Of a DNA stretch of 64,000 nt, positions 80 to 6,372 are shown piece after piece. The position numbers and the translations under genes are program-made. Below the pieces are notes generated by a model. That model was not told where the DNA came from. It searched no databases and was given only the letters and a program-made list of their open reading frames with translations. The stretch is from Vulcanimicrobiota bacterium. GTDB taxonomy: Bacteria; Vulcanimicrobiota; Vulcanimicrobiia; Vulcanimicrobiales; Vulcanimicrobiaceae. Location: positions 1 through 64,000 of the forward strand of contig DAHUZB010000035.1 in the NCBI GenBank assembly GCA_027306785.1, read 5' to 3'. Position 1 is the stretch's first letter. Each line of letters opens with the position of its first letter.

Positions 80-728
80 CCTGAGCGAAGAATCACTTAT
101 ACCGGGGTGATTTGCTGTTCAAAAAACCGGGTCCACCTCTGTAATGCCCTGCTGTCCGTTACTCGATGAGCTTTGTGCTGAATGCGCATCCGAGAGGTTA
201 CCGGTGTTCCCCGACTGTTGGAGCCACTCTCCATCTATCGTCAGTCCATTACTTACACTGGAAATCGGCACGTCGCAACTCCCTTTTCGCGGCGCATAAA
301 CAAAAAAGACGAAACCTTACGGTTCGCCTACATCGCGCGAAGACATGAATTGGGGCAGCGCTTCGCAAGCGCCTAAACCATCCTTGCAGTCACACCCGAT
401 CCATGGCATTCCTCGCCATGCAAACGGCCGCAGGCCTTCCTAGCACGCGGCTTGGCGACACTTTAGCAATAGATGCACGTTAAGGTCAAGTAAAAATAGT
501 CTGTGAAGCCGCTGTTATCAACAGTACTAGCCGCGCACGAGTTCACGAGAGCTAAGGCTAGAAACTATCGTCATCATTTCGGAGGAATTCGGAGTTCGGA
601 GACTCGGTAGCTACTATTCATTGCCGCTCAGGACTTTTCGCGTCTGAGGCGAGTCCTGGCACTCCAGCACAAGGATTCATTGAAGGTGCATGGCAGCAGC
701 AATGGTTGATCGACCTGTTTTCAATACA
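80..728. other. Intergenic stretch without a supportable gene
   Basis: About 650 bases separate two transposase fragments. The stretch is visibly poorer in G and C than the rest of the window and holds only short open frames without ribosome-binding sites or family motifs. It probably consists of insertion-sequence ends and decayed mobile DNA. I see no RNA gene in it. Confidence 0.5.
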
Positions 729-1005
729 ACCTGTTAAGCTGAAAGTGTAGTGAGGTTTGGTTCGTCGCTTGAGAGCCTCGAACTCTGCTGGCGAGCAATA
801 CCGAGGCTCGAATGGAGACGCCGGTGGTTGTAGGTGTGATCGGGGTGGCGCGCAAATGATCGGCGCGCGTCGGCGAAGGCACGTAATCGAGAATGTAGAC
901 TTCTTCATCCTTGAGCGCCCGCATGAAGCGTTCGCAAATAGCGTTATCCGATGGCGTTCCGGCTCGACTCATTCTGGTTTCAATTTGAAGCTGGCCCATT
1001 TCCGT
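729..1005 (-). pseudogene. IS3-family transposase OrfB fragment, frameshifted
   Basis: On the minus strand this reads as the last part of an IS3 integrase core. MSRAGTPSDNAICERFMRAL followed by KDEEVYILDY is the conserved region around the third catalytic acid (MSR.G.P.DNA..E.F...LK.EE). The reading then shifts frame and resumes as RYCSPAEFEALKRRT, the usual ending (SPAEFE). The N-terminal half is missing and the frame is broken, so the gene is dead. It lies opposite in orientation to the OrfA fragment that follows. Confidence 0.75.
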
Positions 1006-1057
1006 GAATACTTTCCGCCTAGCGGAGAAATGTCTACTCATGGCCTGAAAACATCCC

Positions 1058-1318
1058 CGCTCGTACCCGCCGGACTTCCGGCGCAAGGTCATCGAGCTTT
1101 CGAGGACCGGGCGACGACTCGATGAGCTCGCTGCCGAGTTCAGTCTCGCGTCCCAGACCGTACGCAATTGGGACAATCAAACAAAACCGATTTCGACAGC
1201 GGCCCGTGAGCGAATGGCGCGACAGCTGGCATGCTTGAGGAGAATGCGCGGCTACGCAGGCGCGTTAAGCAACTTTAAATCGAGCGCGACATCCTCGCAA
1301 AAGCGGCGGCGGGCACAG
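1058..1318 (+). pseudogene. IS3-family OrfA (HTH_Tnp_1) remnant
   Basis: The plus strand encodes the helix-turn-helix part of an IS3 OrfA: YPPDFRRKVIELSRTGRR, then ELAAEFSLASQTVRNW. A frameshift follows near 1200. In the new frame the leucine-zipper part appears as EENARLRRRVKQL, a stop codon, then IERDILAKAAAGT, which matches the usual ERDILKKA ending. Frameshift plus internal stop make it a pseudogene. The 143-bp direct repeat A begins only about 12 bases further on. Confidence 0.75.
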
Positions 1319-1566: not shown

Positions 1567-1580
1567 GTAAACGTTAATTA
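1550..1580. promoter_or_regulatory. Inverted repeat (operator candidate) over the -10 and start codon of the Fic gene
   Basis: Arms 1550-1562 and 1568-1580 are 13 bases long with a single mismatch (outer nine bases TAATTAACG / CGTTAATTA), separated by 5 bases. The palindrome covers the -10 hexamer and the first base of the ATG. A protein bound here would block transcription. The Fic protein ends in a winged-helix-like region, so autoregulation is a reasonable inference, though not shown. Confidence 0.65.
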
Positions 1581-2857
1581 TGGGACACTATGCGGAGCGG
1601 CCTTGGGCGCCGATCGATACCCAGGGCGTGCCGCGCTCGAAGCGCCGGTACGGTCGCTACCGTGCGTACGTTCCCGACGCGCTCCTTGGTCGCCCGTTCG
1701 CGCTGAGCGGCGAGGTCGCGGCCGACATTGCAGATGCCGAGCAAGCGATACGCCTGCTCGACCAGCAGGCCACACGTCTCACGAATACCGAGGCTCTCGC
1801 GCGGCTGCTCTTGCGGGCGGAATCCGTTGCCTCCTCGCGCATCGAAGGGCTGACCGTCGGCGTCGCCCGGCTGCTCCGCGCAGATTGGGCCGCACGCAAC
1901 GGCGTACAAGAGACTGACGTTACGGCGCGCGACGTGCTGAACAACGTCGAAGCCATGAGCTACGCCGTAGGGTCCGTTGCGGAAGGCGGCGCGATCACGT
2001 TGCCCGTGCTCCTAGAAACGCATCGGCGGCTCCTTGAAAACACGGCACTTCGACGGCATGCCGGCGTTCTGCGCGATCGTCAGAATTGGATCGGCGGCAA
2101 CAACTACAACCCGCTCGGCGCCGACTTCGTCTCTCCGCCCGCCGAGCTGCTCGACGGACTGCTCGAAGATCTCTGCATGTTCTGCAATAGCGACGCGCTG
2201 CCGGCGGTCGCGCAGGCAGCGATGGCGCACGCACAGTTCGAGACGATCCACCCATTCGCCGATGGAAATGGTCGCGTTGGCCGCGCGCTGATTCACCTCG
2301 TTTTTCGCCGGCGAGGACTCACGCACAACGTTACGCCGCCGCTCTCGCTCGTACTCGCAACGAACACGAAAGAGTATGTCAGCGGCCTCGGCGCGACGCG
2401 GTACGAAGGCGCACCGGATTCGCCGGCGGGAATCGAGGGAACGAATCGTTGGCTTGAAACCTTCGCCGTCGCTGCGACGCGTGCCGTCGGCGATGCGGCC
2501 GCGTTCGAAGAGCGAATAAGCGCGCTCCAGACGCGTTGGCGCGAGAGGCTTGCTCCTGTGCGTGCGAACTCCGCGACGGATCTCTTGATTGATGCCCTAC
2601 CCGGCGCACCGGTGACGTCGCTCGCCGCGCTCACGACGCTGCTAGATCGCGCGCTACCGCGCGTGACCGAAGCCGTCGGCCGCTTCGTGGCGGCGGGGAT
2701 TCTGCGCCCGGTGAACGTGGGACGGCAACGCGGCCAGATTTACGAAGCGCACGAGGTCCTCGATGAATTCACGGCGCTCGAGCGCGGGCTCGCCTCGGTG
2801 ATCGGCGACACGAAGCTCGCGCCACCGGCGCGCCCCGTCTTCACCGGCATGATGTAA
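1580..2857 (+). CDS. Fic family protein (AMPylase-type) with C-terminal winged helix
   Basis: The 425-residue protein has the Fic core motif HPFADGNGRVGR at 224-235 with catalytic His224. An upstream SSRIEG (85-90) matches the (S/T)xxxEG inhibitory helix of class II Fic enzymes, so activity is probably self-restrained. Residues 1-40 look like the Fic_N extension (R.YRAYVPDAL), and about 320-400 looks like a winged helix. Fic enzymes usually transfer AMP from ATP to hydroxyl side chains of proteins, and some act as toxins, but no antitoxin-like small gene is adjacent. The gene is intact, lies between two direct repeats beside transposase debris, and is preceded by an AT-rich palindrome. All of this suggests horizontal acquisition. 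Confidence 0.92.
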   Translation: MGHYAERPWAPIDTQGVPRSKRRYGRYRAYVPDALLGRPFALSGEVAADIADAEQAIRLLDQQATRLTNTEALARLLLRAESVASSRIEGLTVGVARLLRADWAARNGVQETDVTARDVLNNVEAMSYAVGSVAEGGAITLPVLLETHRRLLENTALRRHAGVLRDRQNWIGGNNYNPLGADFVSPPAELLDGLLEDLCMFCNSDALPAVAQAAMAHAQFETIHPFADGNGRVGRALIHLVFRRRGLTHNVTPPLSLVLATNTKEYVSGLGATRYEGAPDSPAGIEGTNRWLETFAVAATRAVGDAAAFEERISALQTRWRERLAPVRANSATDLLIDALPGAPVTSLAALTTLLDRALPRVTEAVGRFVAAGILRPVNVGRQRGQIYEAHEVLDEFTALERGLASVIGDTKLAPPARPVFTGMM

Positions 2858-2998
2858 TCGATGTGTCGCCGGCCCGTTTTAGCAAGCCGAGTGCGACTAC
2901 GTCGATCCCGGGCCTTTCCGACGTGCCACCCAGCCGTCGCATTTGAGCCCTCGCTCATATGGTGGAAGAAAGCAGCGAGTACAAACATGCGAGAGTCG

Positions 2999-3141
2999 TT
3001 GCTAGCGTCGAATCTGATAGTCGGACTTGAAGCAACGTACTCGGAACACCTCCCTAGCTCCGAGAGCGCTCTCGACGGAGAGAACCTCCGATGCGTTCAG
3101 CCGGACAATCGGATAATTTCCGCCGTTTGGAGGTTGCTTAA
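2999..3141. repeat. Direct repeat B (right of the Fic gene)
   Basis: Second copy of the 143-bp repeat at 1330-1472, about 95% identical and in the same orientation. The two copies lie 1669 bases apart start to start and enclose the Fic gene with its promoter. On its right side copy B abuts the broken minus-strand gene fragment at 3142-3421. Confidence 0.9.
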
Positions 3142-3421
3142 ACAGCTCTGCGGCCTTCGGAATGCCCTTATAGGGCGCTAGGTCGGCACGGCGGTTGAAC
3201 TGCACGTAATACTTTGAAACGCCGGTCTTATAGAGCCATGCGACGGCGGATTTCGTGTCGCCGTAGGACACGAATGGCCAAATGTCAACCACACTCTTCT
3301 GCTTCGAATTATCCGCGACCGGAATATTCGAGGTCGCCAAATATAAAGGCGAGTCGAGACAGTTGGTGTTCGCCTTCGGCGGAAGCGGAACGACACTGAG
3401 CGCAGCCAGATGGTGCGTGCA
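3142..3421 (-). pseudogene. Fragment of an unrecognised gene, interrupted by direct repeat B
   Basis: An open minus-strand frame after a stop at 3422-3424 reads LAALSVVPLPPKANTNC..., then a convincing protein-like stretch with VVDIWPFVSYGDTKSAVAWL and YYVQFNRRADLAPYKG, and runs into the repeat, where the frame stops at 3002. No start codon with a ribosome-binding site is visible; the only candidate is TTG at 3340. Base composition is clearly lower in GC than neighbouring genes. I read it as the middle of a foreign gene whose two ends have been lost. The family is not recognised. Confidence 0.4.
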
Positions 3422-3507: not shown

Positions 3508-5379
3508 CTACGGCGCGAGGATGACGAGGGCGTCGCCCGCGATGACCGCGCGGGCGAGCACGGGGTCGCGCAGGTGCGTGAAGGCGGCGACGATCTCTTC
3601 GCGGGTGCAAGCGCGGGTTGCGCCCGCGCGCGTGAGGTGTTGTTGCACGAGGAGCATCGCCGCATCGAGCGTGAGATGCGCGGCGTTGGGCGGATCGGCT
3701 TGGGTTGCGGCCGCGGCTTGCGCGTTCCAGCCCTCATCGGCGATCACGCGCGCCGCGTATGCGACGCGTTTGCGTTCGCCGTGATCGCGATCCCAGAGCA
3801 CGTCGAGCATGGCGTCGCCCGCAAAGCCGGGTGCGAAGCAGGGTTCGAGTTCGAGCGGATTCAGACGCTCGGTGAGTGCGGTGACGAGATCGTCGATCGT
3901 CCAGGCGCTGACCGCGTGAGCGAGCAGTTCGTCGTGCAGTTCTACTTCTTCCGAGAACCCTGGGCCTACGAGCGTGCGATAGCGCGCGCCGTATTGATCG
4001 GACCACTTCGCGGCCTCGGCCGCATCGGGCTGCGTGACGACGCCGGCACCGTGTTTGCATTCAAGCATCGCGCGGTAGCCGAGCGGACCGAGTTGTGCAT
4101 CGAGCGTGCCGTCGGGCGCTTTGTTACCGCCAAGGTGCGTGGCGCGAAAGCCAAGATGCGCGAACGCATCGCAGACGGCAACTTCCCACGCATCGGGATC
4201 GGCGCCGCTGACCGTGCTGTGCAGACGAGCGATCAGCGCGGTGGTGGCTGCATCGGGTGCGAGGGGCTGCGGAAGCTCGACGCTTGGCCAATCGTCGAGC
4301 GGCTCGTTCATGCGAAAGGTGCGATCGGCGTTTTGGAGGATGGCGGCGGAGCGATCGTGCGCTTTGCGGCGCTGGATGTAATCGTTCAACGCGTTGTACA
4401 CGTATTTGTCGCTGGTCGCCGCGGTGAGAAGCCCGCGGGCGATCGCTTCATCGAGAATCGCCTTCGCATCGCGCGAACGGCCGTCGGCAAGGATCGCAAG
4501 CGCGGCGCGAATGACGTGCCCGCGCGGCTGCGTGGCCGGCACCATGACCGGTGGCACGCTGTGGTGCGCGATATCGGCAAAGCGCTGCGGCGGAATCGAC
4601 GCGCACTGCGCAGCGAAGCAGTCGCCGCGCTCGCGCAGCGATGCGAGCACCTGTGCGGCTTCGTAGCGGAGAGCATGGGGAGCGAGTGTTTCGAGTTCGG
4701 CCCAGGTGACGGGGGCGACGGCGTAGCGGCCGTCGGCGCCGCGTAAGCTGTAGGGGAGCGCGCTGTGCAGGCCGGGCGCATTCGATTTGACGTGCACGTG
4801 CACGCGCGAACCGCCTACGCTGTTTGGCTCGGTGGTGAAATTGTTCGGGTGCGCGGCGGCGGCATCGTTGGCAAGCGTGTGTAGCCAGGCGCGCACGGGC
4901 GCGTAGGCGGGCGCATCGCTGAAGGGCAGGTAGAGCGCGATGCCGCCGAGCCCATCGAGCAACGGAATCGCGGTAAGGTGACGGGCGTCGAGCAGATCGC
5001 GCAGCAACAGCGCGGCCGTGCGCATGGCGCCGGGAGCAGCGCCGGTGGGTTCGAGCAAGATGCGTGCGAAGTGCACCGCGGCGGGGTCTTCCGCGGTGGG
5101 CGTCCACGAGTGGAATTCGGCCGCTGCGAGATCCTTCGCGAGCCATTCCAGCGTGAAGCTTTCGAGCGCGAGATACGGGTGCGTGCGGCCGGAGGCGCCG
5201 GTGACCGCGACCGTAGGGAGACGGTGCGCGTGCTCCGCGAGGGGACCGCGCCAGGTGGGCGGTGCCGAGGCGGCCGCAAAGGTATTCCACGCGACGGGGA
5301 TGCCGCGAAACGACGCGGCGATATGCGGAATGACCGCTTCGTAATACGAAAGCGCCTCCGCGACAAGGGGCTGCACCAC
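3508..5379 (-). CDS. LigD-polymerase-like (inactive) + HARE-HTH-like + PD-(D/E)XK nuclease fusion protein
   Basis: A protein of about 623 residues. I chose GTG at 5379 because GGAG lies 7 bases upstream; TTG at 5385 is the alternative. Residues 8-240 follow the LigD primase/polymerase pattern: SYYEAVIPHIAASFRGIPV, then AEFHSW, LLRDLLDARHL, PYSLRG and PVTWAEL. The catalytic D-x-D position reads ILLEP (107-111), the KTSGGKGLH position reads DGLGGIALY, and the third acid position reads RVHVHVKSN, so nucleotide transfer looks lost. Residues 286-358 resemble a HARE-HTH winged helix (AILADGRSRDAKAIL... YVYNALNDYIQRR). Residues 392-505 look like an Mrr-type nuclease: W398-E399, P422-D423, E440-C441-K442. 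The remainder is helical and unrecognised. No partner gene adjoins it. A role in DNA-end or foreign-DNA recognition is inference. Confidence 0.72.
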   Translation of the reverse strand: MVQPLVAEALSYYEAVIPHIAASFRGIPVAWNTFAAASAPPTWRGPLAEHAHRLPTVAVTGASGRTHPYLALESFTLEWLAKDLAAAEFHSWTPTAEDPAAVHFARILLEPTGAAPGAMRTAALLLRDLLDARHLTAIPLLDGLGGIALYLPFSDAPAYAPVRAWLHTLANDAAAAHPNNFTTEPNSVGGSRVHVHVKSNAPGLHSALPYSLRGADGRYAVAPVTWAELETLAPHALRYEAAQVLASLRERGDCFAAQCASIPPQRFADIAHHSVPPVMVPATQPRGHVIRAALAILADGRSRDAKAILDEAIARGLLTAATSDKYVYNALNDYIQRRKAHDRSAAILQNADRTFRMNEPLDDWPSVELPQPLAPDAATTALIARLHSTVSGADPDAWEVAVCDAFAHLGFRATHLGGNKAPDGTLDAQLGPLGYRAMLECKHGAGVVTQPDAAEAAKWSDQYGARYRTLVGPGFSEEVELHDELLAHAVSAWTIDDLVTALTERLNPLELEPCFAPGFAGDAMLDVLWDRDHGERKRVAYAARVIADEGWNAQAAAATQADPPNAAHLTLDAAMLLVQQHLTRAGATRACTREEIVAAFTHLRDPVLARAVIAGDALVILAP

Positions 5380-5790
5380 GCTCAAGCTCCTTCGCTGCCA
5401 TAATCGGCGACTAGGGTCACTTTCTGCGGGTGCCGCACGCGATCATGCCGACCTTGGGCGATGAGGAGCAGACGGGGGACGCGAGGAGCGCGAAGCGCTC
5501 ATCCCATCCGACATTACGTTGCTACACGTCTAATGAGACGATCACGCGGGTCGGGTGCGCGTTTTGACAATGCCGCAATTTGCTTCGTCGTTTGTAATCG
5601 TGCAAAGCGAACATCCTTCGACAAGCTCAGGATGACACGGGGGCTCGGGATGACGCGGGGGCACAGGATGACACACTCGGCGTGCGCGTATCGCCGCCGG
5701 AATCGTCCGGCAACGGCCCGAAAGGGATGGTCAGACGGGGAAATTCCGGTTGACTTTTCGTCTCCGCCCGACACACAGGGGGGTCCGAGC
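5380..5790. other. Intergenic region with dispersed and tandem repeats
   Basis: Divergent region between the nuclease fusion and the secreted protein gene. Besides the repeats at 5612-5679 I see no gene. A TTGACT at 5750-5755 could serve as a -35 for the downstream gene, but no convincing -10 follows. Confidence 0.5.
5612..5679. repeat. Dispersed 'CCTTCGACAAGCTCAGGATGA' type repeat followed by an 18-bp tandem repeat
   Basis: CATCCTTCGACAAGCTCAGG belongs to a short repeat that occurs scattered in many bacterial genomes; translated it gives the well-known nonsense string SFDKLRMT. Three 18-bp units follow at 5626-5643, 5644-5661 and 5662-5679 (CTCAGGATGACACGGGGG, CTCGGGATGACGCGGGGG, and a diverged third). 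It lies wholly in a non-coding region. Confidence 0.75.
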
Positions 5791-6297
5791 ATGTTTAGGC
5801 TCCTGGTTGGACTTGCAATGTTTTTCGGCTTTGCATCCGTTGCGCAGGCGCAGTGCGGCGATAGCGTGTGCAACGCGATCTCCACGATTCTCAACGACCG
5901 TTCCGCCGCGTTCGCCGATTTGCGCGCCGGTGCCCCCGACGGGACGATGGGGGCTTCAGACGGGACGGTCGCGATCACCATCAATGGCTACAGTTGTCAG
6001 GGCCGTGTTGTCGCGAACGACTCGATGGCGGACAATAACGGTTCCGACTATCGCTGCATCTATGGAGTGCCGTCGGACGCGGCGGGGGCGGTATTCAGAG
6101 GCCTTCGCGCAGGCGCTCAAGAGGCAATTCCCTCGTCGTGGGATCAATGGAATGACAACAGCGACGGCGAGGTCTGGTGTGCCGGCCCCGACGATGCGCA
6201 CACGCTGGTCGTCGTCGATCACTTTGGAAATCTCGTAAAGCTGTGGGTCTTTGCGCAGCCACAACTTCGTGCGAATGGGTTCTGCGGCGATTCGTAA
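5791..6297 (+). CDS. Secreted six-cysteine protein, unknown function
   Basis: 168 residues. The start at 5791 was chosen because it gives a clean signal peptide (MFRLLVGLAMFFGFASVAQA, cleavage probably before QCGD) and follows a G-rich stretch; an upstream in-frame ATG would add a repeat-derived, protein-unlike tail. The mature part contains six cysteines (QCGDSVC, YSCQG, YRCIYG, VWCAG, GFCGD), enough for three disulfides, and many acidic residues. I do not recognise a family. It is probably periplasmic or extracellular. The following Mrp-like gene starts 75 bases later on the same strand, with no obvious functional link. Confidence 0.75.
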   Translation: MFRLLVGLAMFFGFASVAQAQCGDSVCNAISTILNDRSAAFADLRAGAPDGTMGASDGTVAITINGYSCQGRVVANDSMADNNGSDYRCIYGVPSDAAGAVFRGLRAGAQEAIPSSWDQWNDNSDGEVWCAGPDDAHTLVVVDHFGNLVKLWVFAQPQLRANGFCGDS

Positions 6298-6372
6298 ATC
6301 GCCGGGCGAACGGTGGAATATGCGGCAAAGACCGTATCCCGCGGCGGGCGCCTGGGGTTTAATGAGAGCGTT

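Follow-up and report, generated by a model that had tools for sequence, protein, structure and literature searches.

What does a protein do that carries a polymerase-like domain stripped of its catalytic acids in front of a nuclease whose own catalytic residues are in place? The question is raised by a gene in a 64,000-nt stretch of DNA (the window, the whole stretch analysed), which is the start of contig C28 in a 3.1-Mb assembly. The gene is an intact 623-aa open reading frame on the minus strand, and a first-pass annotation had read it as a LigD-polymerase-like pseudo-enzyme fused to a HARE-HTH-like module and an Mrr-type nuclease, an order of domains that it could not place in any described family. 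The open literature that we searched likewise holds no description of this architecture. The domain and fold assignments below were computed directly, and they include a second winged helix (residues 517-623) at the C-terminus of the protein that was absent from the earlier annotation.

3508-5379, minus strand: whole gene, pseudo-PrimPol, winged helix, nuclease and winged helix, 623 aa, GTG start (open reading frame; full-length homologues)
5387-5392, minus strand: ribosome-binding site AAGGAG, 7 nt before the GTG (read directly)
4594-5358, minus strand: residues 8-262, LigD-type primase-polymerase fold, predicted to be catalytically dead (Pfam, PDB profile, fold match)
5050-5058, minus strand: L108-L109-E110, at LigD-Pol D137-x-D139 (motif I; alignment)
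4792-4794, minus strand: H196, at LigD-Pol D227 (motif III; alignment)
4306-4521, minus strand: residues 287-358, winged helix aligning with the FokI D3 winged helix (model; FokI 298-579 aligned)
3832-4251, minus strand: residues 377-516, PD-(D/E)XK nuclease of the FokI/HindIII/Mrr group (fold and profile)
4111-4113, minus strand: D423, aligned with FokI D450 (D in 47/47)
4054-4062, minus strand: E440-C441-K442, aligned with FokI D467-T468-K469 (E in 47/47, K in 45/47)
3517-3822, minus strand: residues 520-621, second, C-terminal winged helix (model; cullin-type WHB in fold only)

The N-terminal part descends clearly from LigD polymerases, as had been claimed for residues 8-240. Pfam LigD_Prim-Pol (PF21686) matches residues 8-255 with an E-value of 2.5e-25 and 89.9 bits (cut-off 27.4), the PDB profile match is 2iru (E 5.5e-25), and the AlphaFold model (pLDDT 83.6 for the full protein) adopts the fold of M. 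tuberculosis LigD-Pol (2irx; Z 30, 2.1 Å over 256 residues, model residues 1-260), while the NCBIfam LigD models score the protein far under their equivalog cut-offs. The replacement of the three metal-binding acids also held: D137, D139 and D227 of LigD-Pol have become L108, E110 and H196. We compared 36 family domains with a control set of 22 LigD-Pol homologues from genomes of the same phylum, and found Asp137 and Asp139 in 0/36 each against 22/22 in the true LigD-Pols; the D227 position holds histidine in 17/36 and aspartate in 3/36 of the family domains, against aspartate in 22/22. Other polymerase-site residues were retained, namely N231 (35/36), P240-Y241 (36/36) and, in part, Arg244 (22/36; 22/22 in true LigD-Pols), and an alignment of 15 full-length sequences (the window protein and 14 relatives) contains conserved non-catalytic blocks in this part (N200, P209-Y210). 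In the tree, the family forms one clade that is separated from true LigD-Pol with 100/100 support, and the depth of this split is uncertain because of long branches.

The earlier idea that the nuclease is steered by DNA 5'-ends or nucleotides found no support in this comparison. The 5'-phosphate pocket of LigD is made of Asn13, Lys16 and Lys26 (PMC8656161). In the structure superposition the window protein starts at the equivalent of M. tuberculosis residue 18, so that the segment bearing Asn13 and Lys16 is missing, and the Lys26 position holds lysine in 1/36 family domains (22/22 in true LigD-Pols); the pocket is therefore absent. Of the nucleotide-site positions, Arg53 holds arginine in 0/36 and S172 is altered too. 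Judged by its residues, this polymerase domain is catalytically dead, and the pocket that would bind ends is gone. This loss bears directly on the reading in which the protein is an accessory nuclease of DNA repair or NHEJ, whose pseudo-polymerase would attach to Ku or to broken ends so that the nuclease can trim these. LigD-Pol descent would suit such a role, as would the presence of Ku in most genomes of the class (92/117); however, the family occurs in 36/117, and no Ku, ligase, Dnd or BREX genes were noticed among the best-represented neighbour families. Moreover, Ku is missing from four near-complete genomes (95-98%) that have intact family copies (G012, G022, G029 and G024), and in three of them (G012, G029 and G024) the LigD_Prim-Pol profile finds nothing else, absences that are subject to assembly gaps. 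The family is independent of NHEJ genes, and the same Ku-less and LigD-Pol-less genomes led us to reject both an NHEJ role and a Ku-docked nuclease; we consider the accessory-nuclease reading very improbable. Of the defence or repair role first proposed, the repair part falls with it and the link to defence stands as one possibility.

The nuclease, in turn, is intact at P422-D423 and E440-C441-K442, the motifs singled out by the first-pass annotation. D423 and E440 occur in all of the nuclease domains compared (47/47 each) and K442 in 45/47, E399, Y435 and E455 are also invariant, and the invariant positions of the 15-sequence alignment are H415, G417, D423, G424, D427, E440, C441 and K442. 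The top fold match for the model of residues 276-623 (pLDDT 89.8) was FokI 298-579, which spans the winged helix D3 and the cleavage domain (Foldseek E 1.7e-8, Z 16); the overall rmsd of this superposition is 13 Å, so the domains correspond in order and not in mutual orientation. FokI D450, D467 and K469 align at equal spacing with D423, E440 and K442, a likeness that is weak by sequence alone (E 0.2). HindIII (Z 14.4, 3.0 Å over 152 residues) and BspD6I were also among the nearest folds, AF1548 (1y88) matched with Z 11.2, and the C-terminal winged helix resembles cullin WHB in fold only (Z 8.8, 1.8 Å over 72 residues). Sequence alone prefers Mrr_cat to FokI_cleav_dom: 14/15 relatives match Mrr_cat (PF04471) at E<1 (best 3e-7), and the Pfam FokI_cleav_dom profile matches 3/22 members (best E 0.036). 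With FokI on top by fold and Mrr_cat by sequence, we describe the fold of the domain as FokI-like and assign it to the Mrr/FokI group of PD-(D/E)XK nucleases. The label Mrr-type is only partly right: at 13.1 bits the window protein falls short of the 21 bits that Mrr_cat requires, and its nearest folds are others. The HARE-HTH-like module had to be replaced altogether: neither the window protein nor the family lists of its relatives show a hit to the Pfam HARE-HTH profile, and a winged helix aligning with FokI D3 stands there instead. Two further proteins carry the nuclease domain in other settings. A nuclease-only copy (L070 17320-18408), beside an HNH gene, has ECE for ECK and is probably inactive, and in a Holophagales protein (L059 6246-8801) a GHKL-type ATPase (HATPase_c_3) is joined to this nuclease domain, here with the motif PD...EAK, so that outside the phylum the putative cutter is paired with a different sensor.

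FokI D3 holds the cleavage domain sequestered until the recognition domains meet their target site. The winged helix between the pseudo-polymerase and the nuclease occupies the position of D3, and this shared order of winged helix and nuclease points, by analogy, to the pseudo-polymerase as the recognition part. In the reading that we prefer, and to which we give a slightly better than even chance, the protein is a modular DNA endonuclease of FokI-like type that acts alone, most likely in defence, with the dead LigD-Pol as its recognition or docking module. This module would neither polymerise nor bind metal nor hold 5'-phosphate ends; it may engage a DNA structure, a modification or a (DNA-bound) protein, and target engagement would release the PD-(D/E)XK domain, as in FokI, to cut DNA, probably as a dimer, with the C-terminal winged helix adding a DNA or protein contact. 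We infer the cutting, the target, the release mechanism, the dimerisation and the defence role.

The rates of change along the protein fit such a division. The pseudo-polymerase is the fastest-changing part, with a mean identity of 0.40 against 0.52 for the nuclease and the lower value in 91% of pairs, and the winged helices vary less than it does; fast change of this kind is as for a specificity module. Its dN/dS is about 0.2 in the closest pairs, indicating purifying selection. For L008/L009 (81% identical, from G029 and G012), the closest pair from the Ku-less genomes that differs enough to be measured, dN/dS is 0.21 in the polymerase part, 0.04 in the winged helix, 0.09 in the nuclease and 0.15 in the C-terminus; in a second pair (L008/L010, 98% identical) the changes are too few for a dN/dS reading. 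A chance open frame or pseudogene is ruled out by the 15 full-length sequences together with the values below 0.25 in all four parts of L008/L009. The same fast change could also mark a decoy, that is, a pseudo-polymerase that mimics cellular LigD-Pol or primase and switches on the nuclease when a phage protein binds it. A fold kept while the active site and the DNA-end pocket are removed would agree with a decoy, as would its persistence as a separate gene beside the nuclease (see below), but no phage inhibitor of LigD-Pol is known in these hosts and the retained N231, P240-Y241 and R244 fit nucleic-acid binding equally well. We assign this explanation a low probability.

Returning to the recognition module that we favour, the way in which the two halves are encoded ties them to each other. 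At 22 loci one intact frame encodes all parts. At 11 more, some with a broken member, the pseudo-polymerase is encoded next to, but apart from, the winged helix-nuclease, and the genes are arranged in five ways, a linkage computed directly:

Polymerase gene, then nuclease gene: L049, L069, L114, L123
Polymerase gene, then two nuclease genes: L115 (3665-6686), tandem nuclease genes
Nuclease gene, then polymerase gene: L111, L120, L124
Convergent genes: L113
Divergent genes: L075, L126; L126 (1483-4111) has one nuclease gene and two pseudo-polymerase genes

In G132 a nuclease gene lies no more than about 1.5 kb from each separate pseudo-polymerase gene (4/4), and both full-length pseudo-polymerase genes of G134 are likewise near one. 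As far as gene arrangement tells, the two halves belong together. The split members form a nested subclade on the tree, and the separation is thus probably derived. Nuclease genes with no pseudo-polymerase nearby also exist (L112, L116, L118, L119, L121, L122 and L070), mostly keeping D, E and K, and no recurrent alternative partner was found beside the nuclease-only copies. A pseudo-polymerase alone near rpoB is found in two genomes of one genus (L072 9518-10246 and L073 4963-5643), where the nuclease is lost while the dead domain keeps an open frame. From these two kinds of loci, neither half strictly requires its partner. One of the nuclease-only copies (L112 5561-6586) adjoins genes for a RES-domain toxin and a helix-turn-helix antitoxin-like protein.

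The nuclease genes that stand alone with D, E and K mostly kept raise the question of whether the pseudo-polymerase is merely a structural or dimerisation part, with the two winged helices giving specificity as modification readers, like the winged-helix fusion type IV enzymes. Winged helices do read 6mA in related fusion enzymes (PMC11037411), and solitary genes of the family mostly lack methylases. Against this, the pseudo-polymerase varies more than the winged helices do, which would be unexpected if these helices were the sole source of specificity, and the pseudo-polymerase and nuclease genes are repeatedly linked; we regard it as quite unlikely. A further reading is a new lineage-specific immune system whose dead LigD-Pol targeting subunit, in one chain or as one of two shuffled genes, would sense DNA structures and not base sequence, such as the gaps or primer-template junctions that an invader exposes while it replicates. 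We think this possible but less likely than not.

The gene is not particular to the window. Full-length relatives at 37-50% identity were found in many genomes of the class by whole-genome search, the closest one quoted for the 623-aa protein being from G015 (49% identical), and the named relatives belong to Ca. Eremiobacterota and are soil bacteria. With the nuclease half as query, the family is present in 36/117 class genomes of Ca. Eremiobacterota and in 27/70 of good quality, with up to eight matches per genome (G132, G134) and many broken copies. A pattern-based scan of 84,980 species placed the family only in Ca. Eremiobacterota, the Holophagales protein sharing the nuclease domain alone. 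This patchiness, the multiple diverged copies and the frequent decay fit a conflict gene, although not uniquely. Two family genes (L052 8001-10016 and L056 2336-3496) carry SLSKDPEQ-like in-frame insertions that leave the frame unbroken, and FDKLRMT-like peptides occur in a window open reading frame (5461-6294); both look like translated interspersed palindromic repeats.

The surroundings of the window gene differ from those of its sister genomes. Synteny with G001 and G002 runs from window position 6345 rightward (77-80% at the nucleotide level) and ends before the gene, to the left of which lie a Fic gene and an integrase fragment:

1580-2857, plus strand: Fic gene, flanked by 147-nt direct repeats
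1329-1475 and 2998-3144: 147-nt direct repeats (95%), flanking the Fic gene
721-1176, minus strand: integrase-core (rve) transposase fragment at the contig start

A second Fic gene, on C26 of the same genome, is 80% identical to that of the window. Transposition by flanking repeats was considered and set aside, as none were seen around the nuclease gene itself and the 147-nt repeats bracket Fic. A selfish or mobile-element (homing-like) nuclease, whose gene spreads through DNA cutting and copying, would account for up to eight copies per genome, many decayed and at no fixed site, and for a window gene that adjoins an integrase fragment and direct repeats. On the other hand, the two family copies of the window's own genome are about 46-50% identical, which argues against recent amplification, and no common flanking gene was found. 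Viral contigs and phage records gave no relatives, and plasmids matched only LigD or an unrelated endonuclease; on these results we also rejected a phage or plasmid origin, and the absence of phage and viral relatives counts against the defence reading too. We consider the homing-like nuclease unlikely. The second copy in the same genome (L061 9088-14622, on C30) is frameshifted and lies near an NgoMIV-type restriction enzyme and a C5 methylase. Among 112 neighbours scanned, however, there were 2 C5-methylase, 2 Fic and 1 Cas1 genes; with so few defence genes, a defence island is not the general rule, which weighs against the defence reading. All-against-all clustering of the neighbours recovered no fixed flanking gene besides the pseudo-polymerase, and any other conserved partner was rejected on that ground.

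Set against known systems, the endonuclease that we propose differs from each in a distinct way. First, FokI (type IIS) likewise places a winged helix before a PD-(D/E)XK cleavage domain, with aligned catalytic residues, but has its recognition domains D1/D2 where the family has the pseudo-LigD-Pol; the family also has the extra C-terminal winged helix, and most of its loci lack an adjacent cognate methylase. Second, LigD-Pol/Prim-PolC (the NHEJ and excision repair AEP) share fold and descent, whereas the family lacks the DxD (all members), D227 (most), Lys26 (all but one) and the 5'-phosphate pocket, is joined to a nuclease and winged helix in place of a ligase or phosphoesterase, and is found without Ku. 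An earlier proposal has catalytically dead relatives of the primase-polymerase fold acting purely as DNA binders, in the form of origin-binding domains (PMC4538821). Third, the winged-helix fusion type IV enzymes FcyTI, Psp4BI and HtuIII (PMC11037411) are likewise solitary modular nucleases with winged helices and mostly no nearby methylase, but without a PrimPol-like domain; the family, mostly solitary and with few methylases among its neighbours, shares this type IV-like trait. Fourth, HARE-HTH and REase fusions (PMC10853773, PMC12839542) also combine a helix-turn-helix and PD-(D/E)XK domain in one protein, while the family lacks both the HARE-HTH match and Dnd or BREX genes among its best-represented neighbours. 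At last, the Mrr_cat proteins, whose profile most relatives match and to which the AF1548 fold match belongs, have QxK where the family has ECK, and FokI and HindIII are closer to the family in fold. As a solitary modular restriction-like nuclease, the protein is of a known kind; its targeting domain and its fused-and-shuffled genetics are new.

Dead members of the primase-polymerase superfamily have rarely been seen as sensors, and this family couples one with a putative FokI-type cutter at 33 loci. If the pseudo-polymerase targets the nuclease, the family would be an example of a repair polymerase recruited into immunity, and FokI-like nucleases would gain a naturally occurring alternative to their recognition module. 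With the split forms, partner binding and the division of labour between the two halves can be tested directly.
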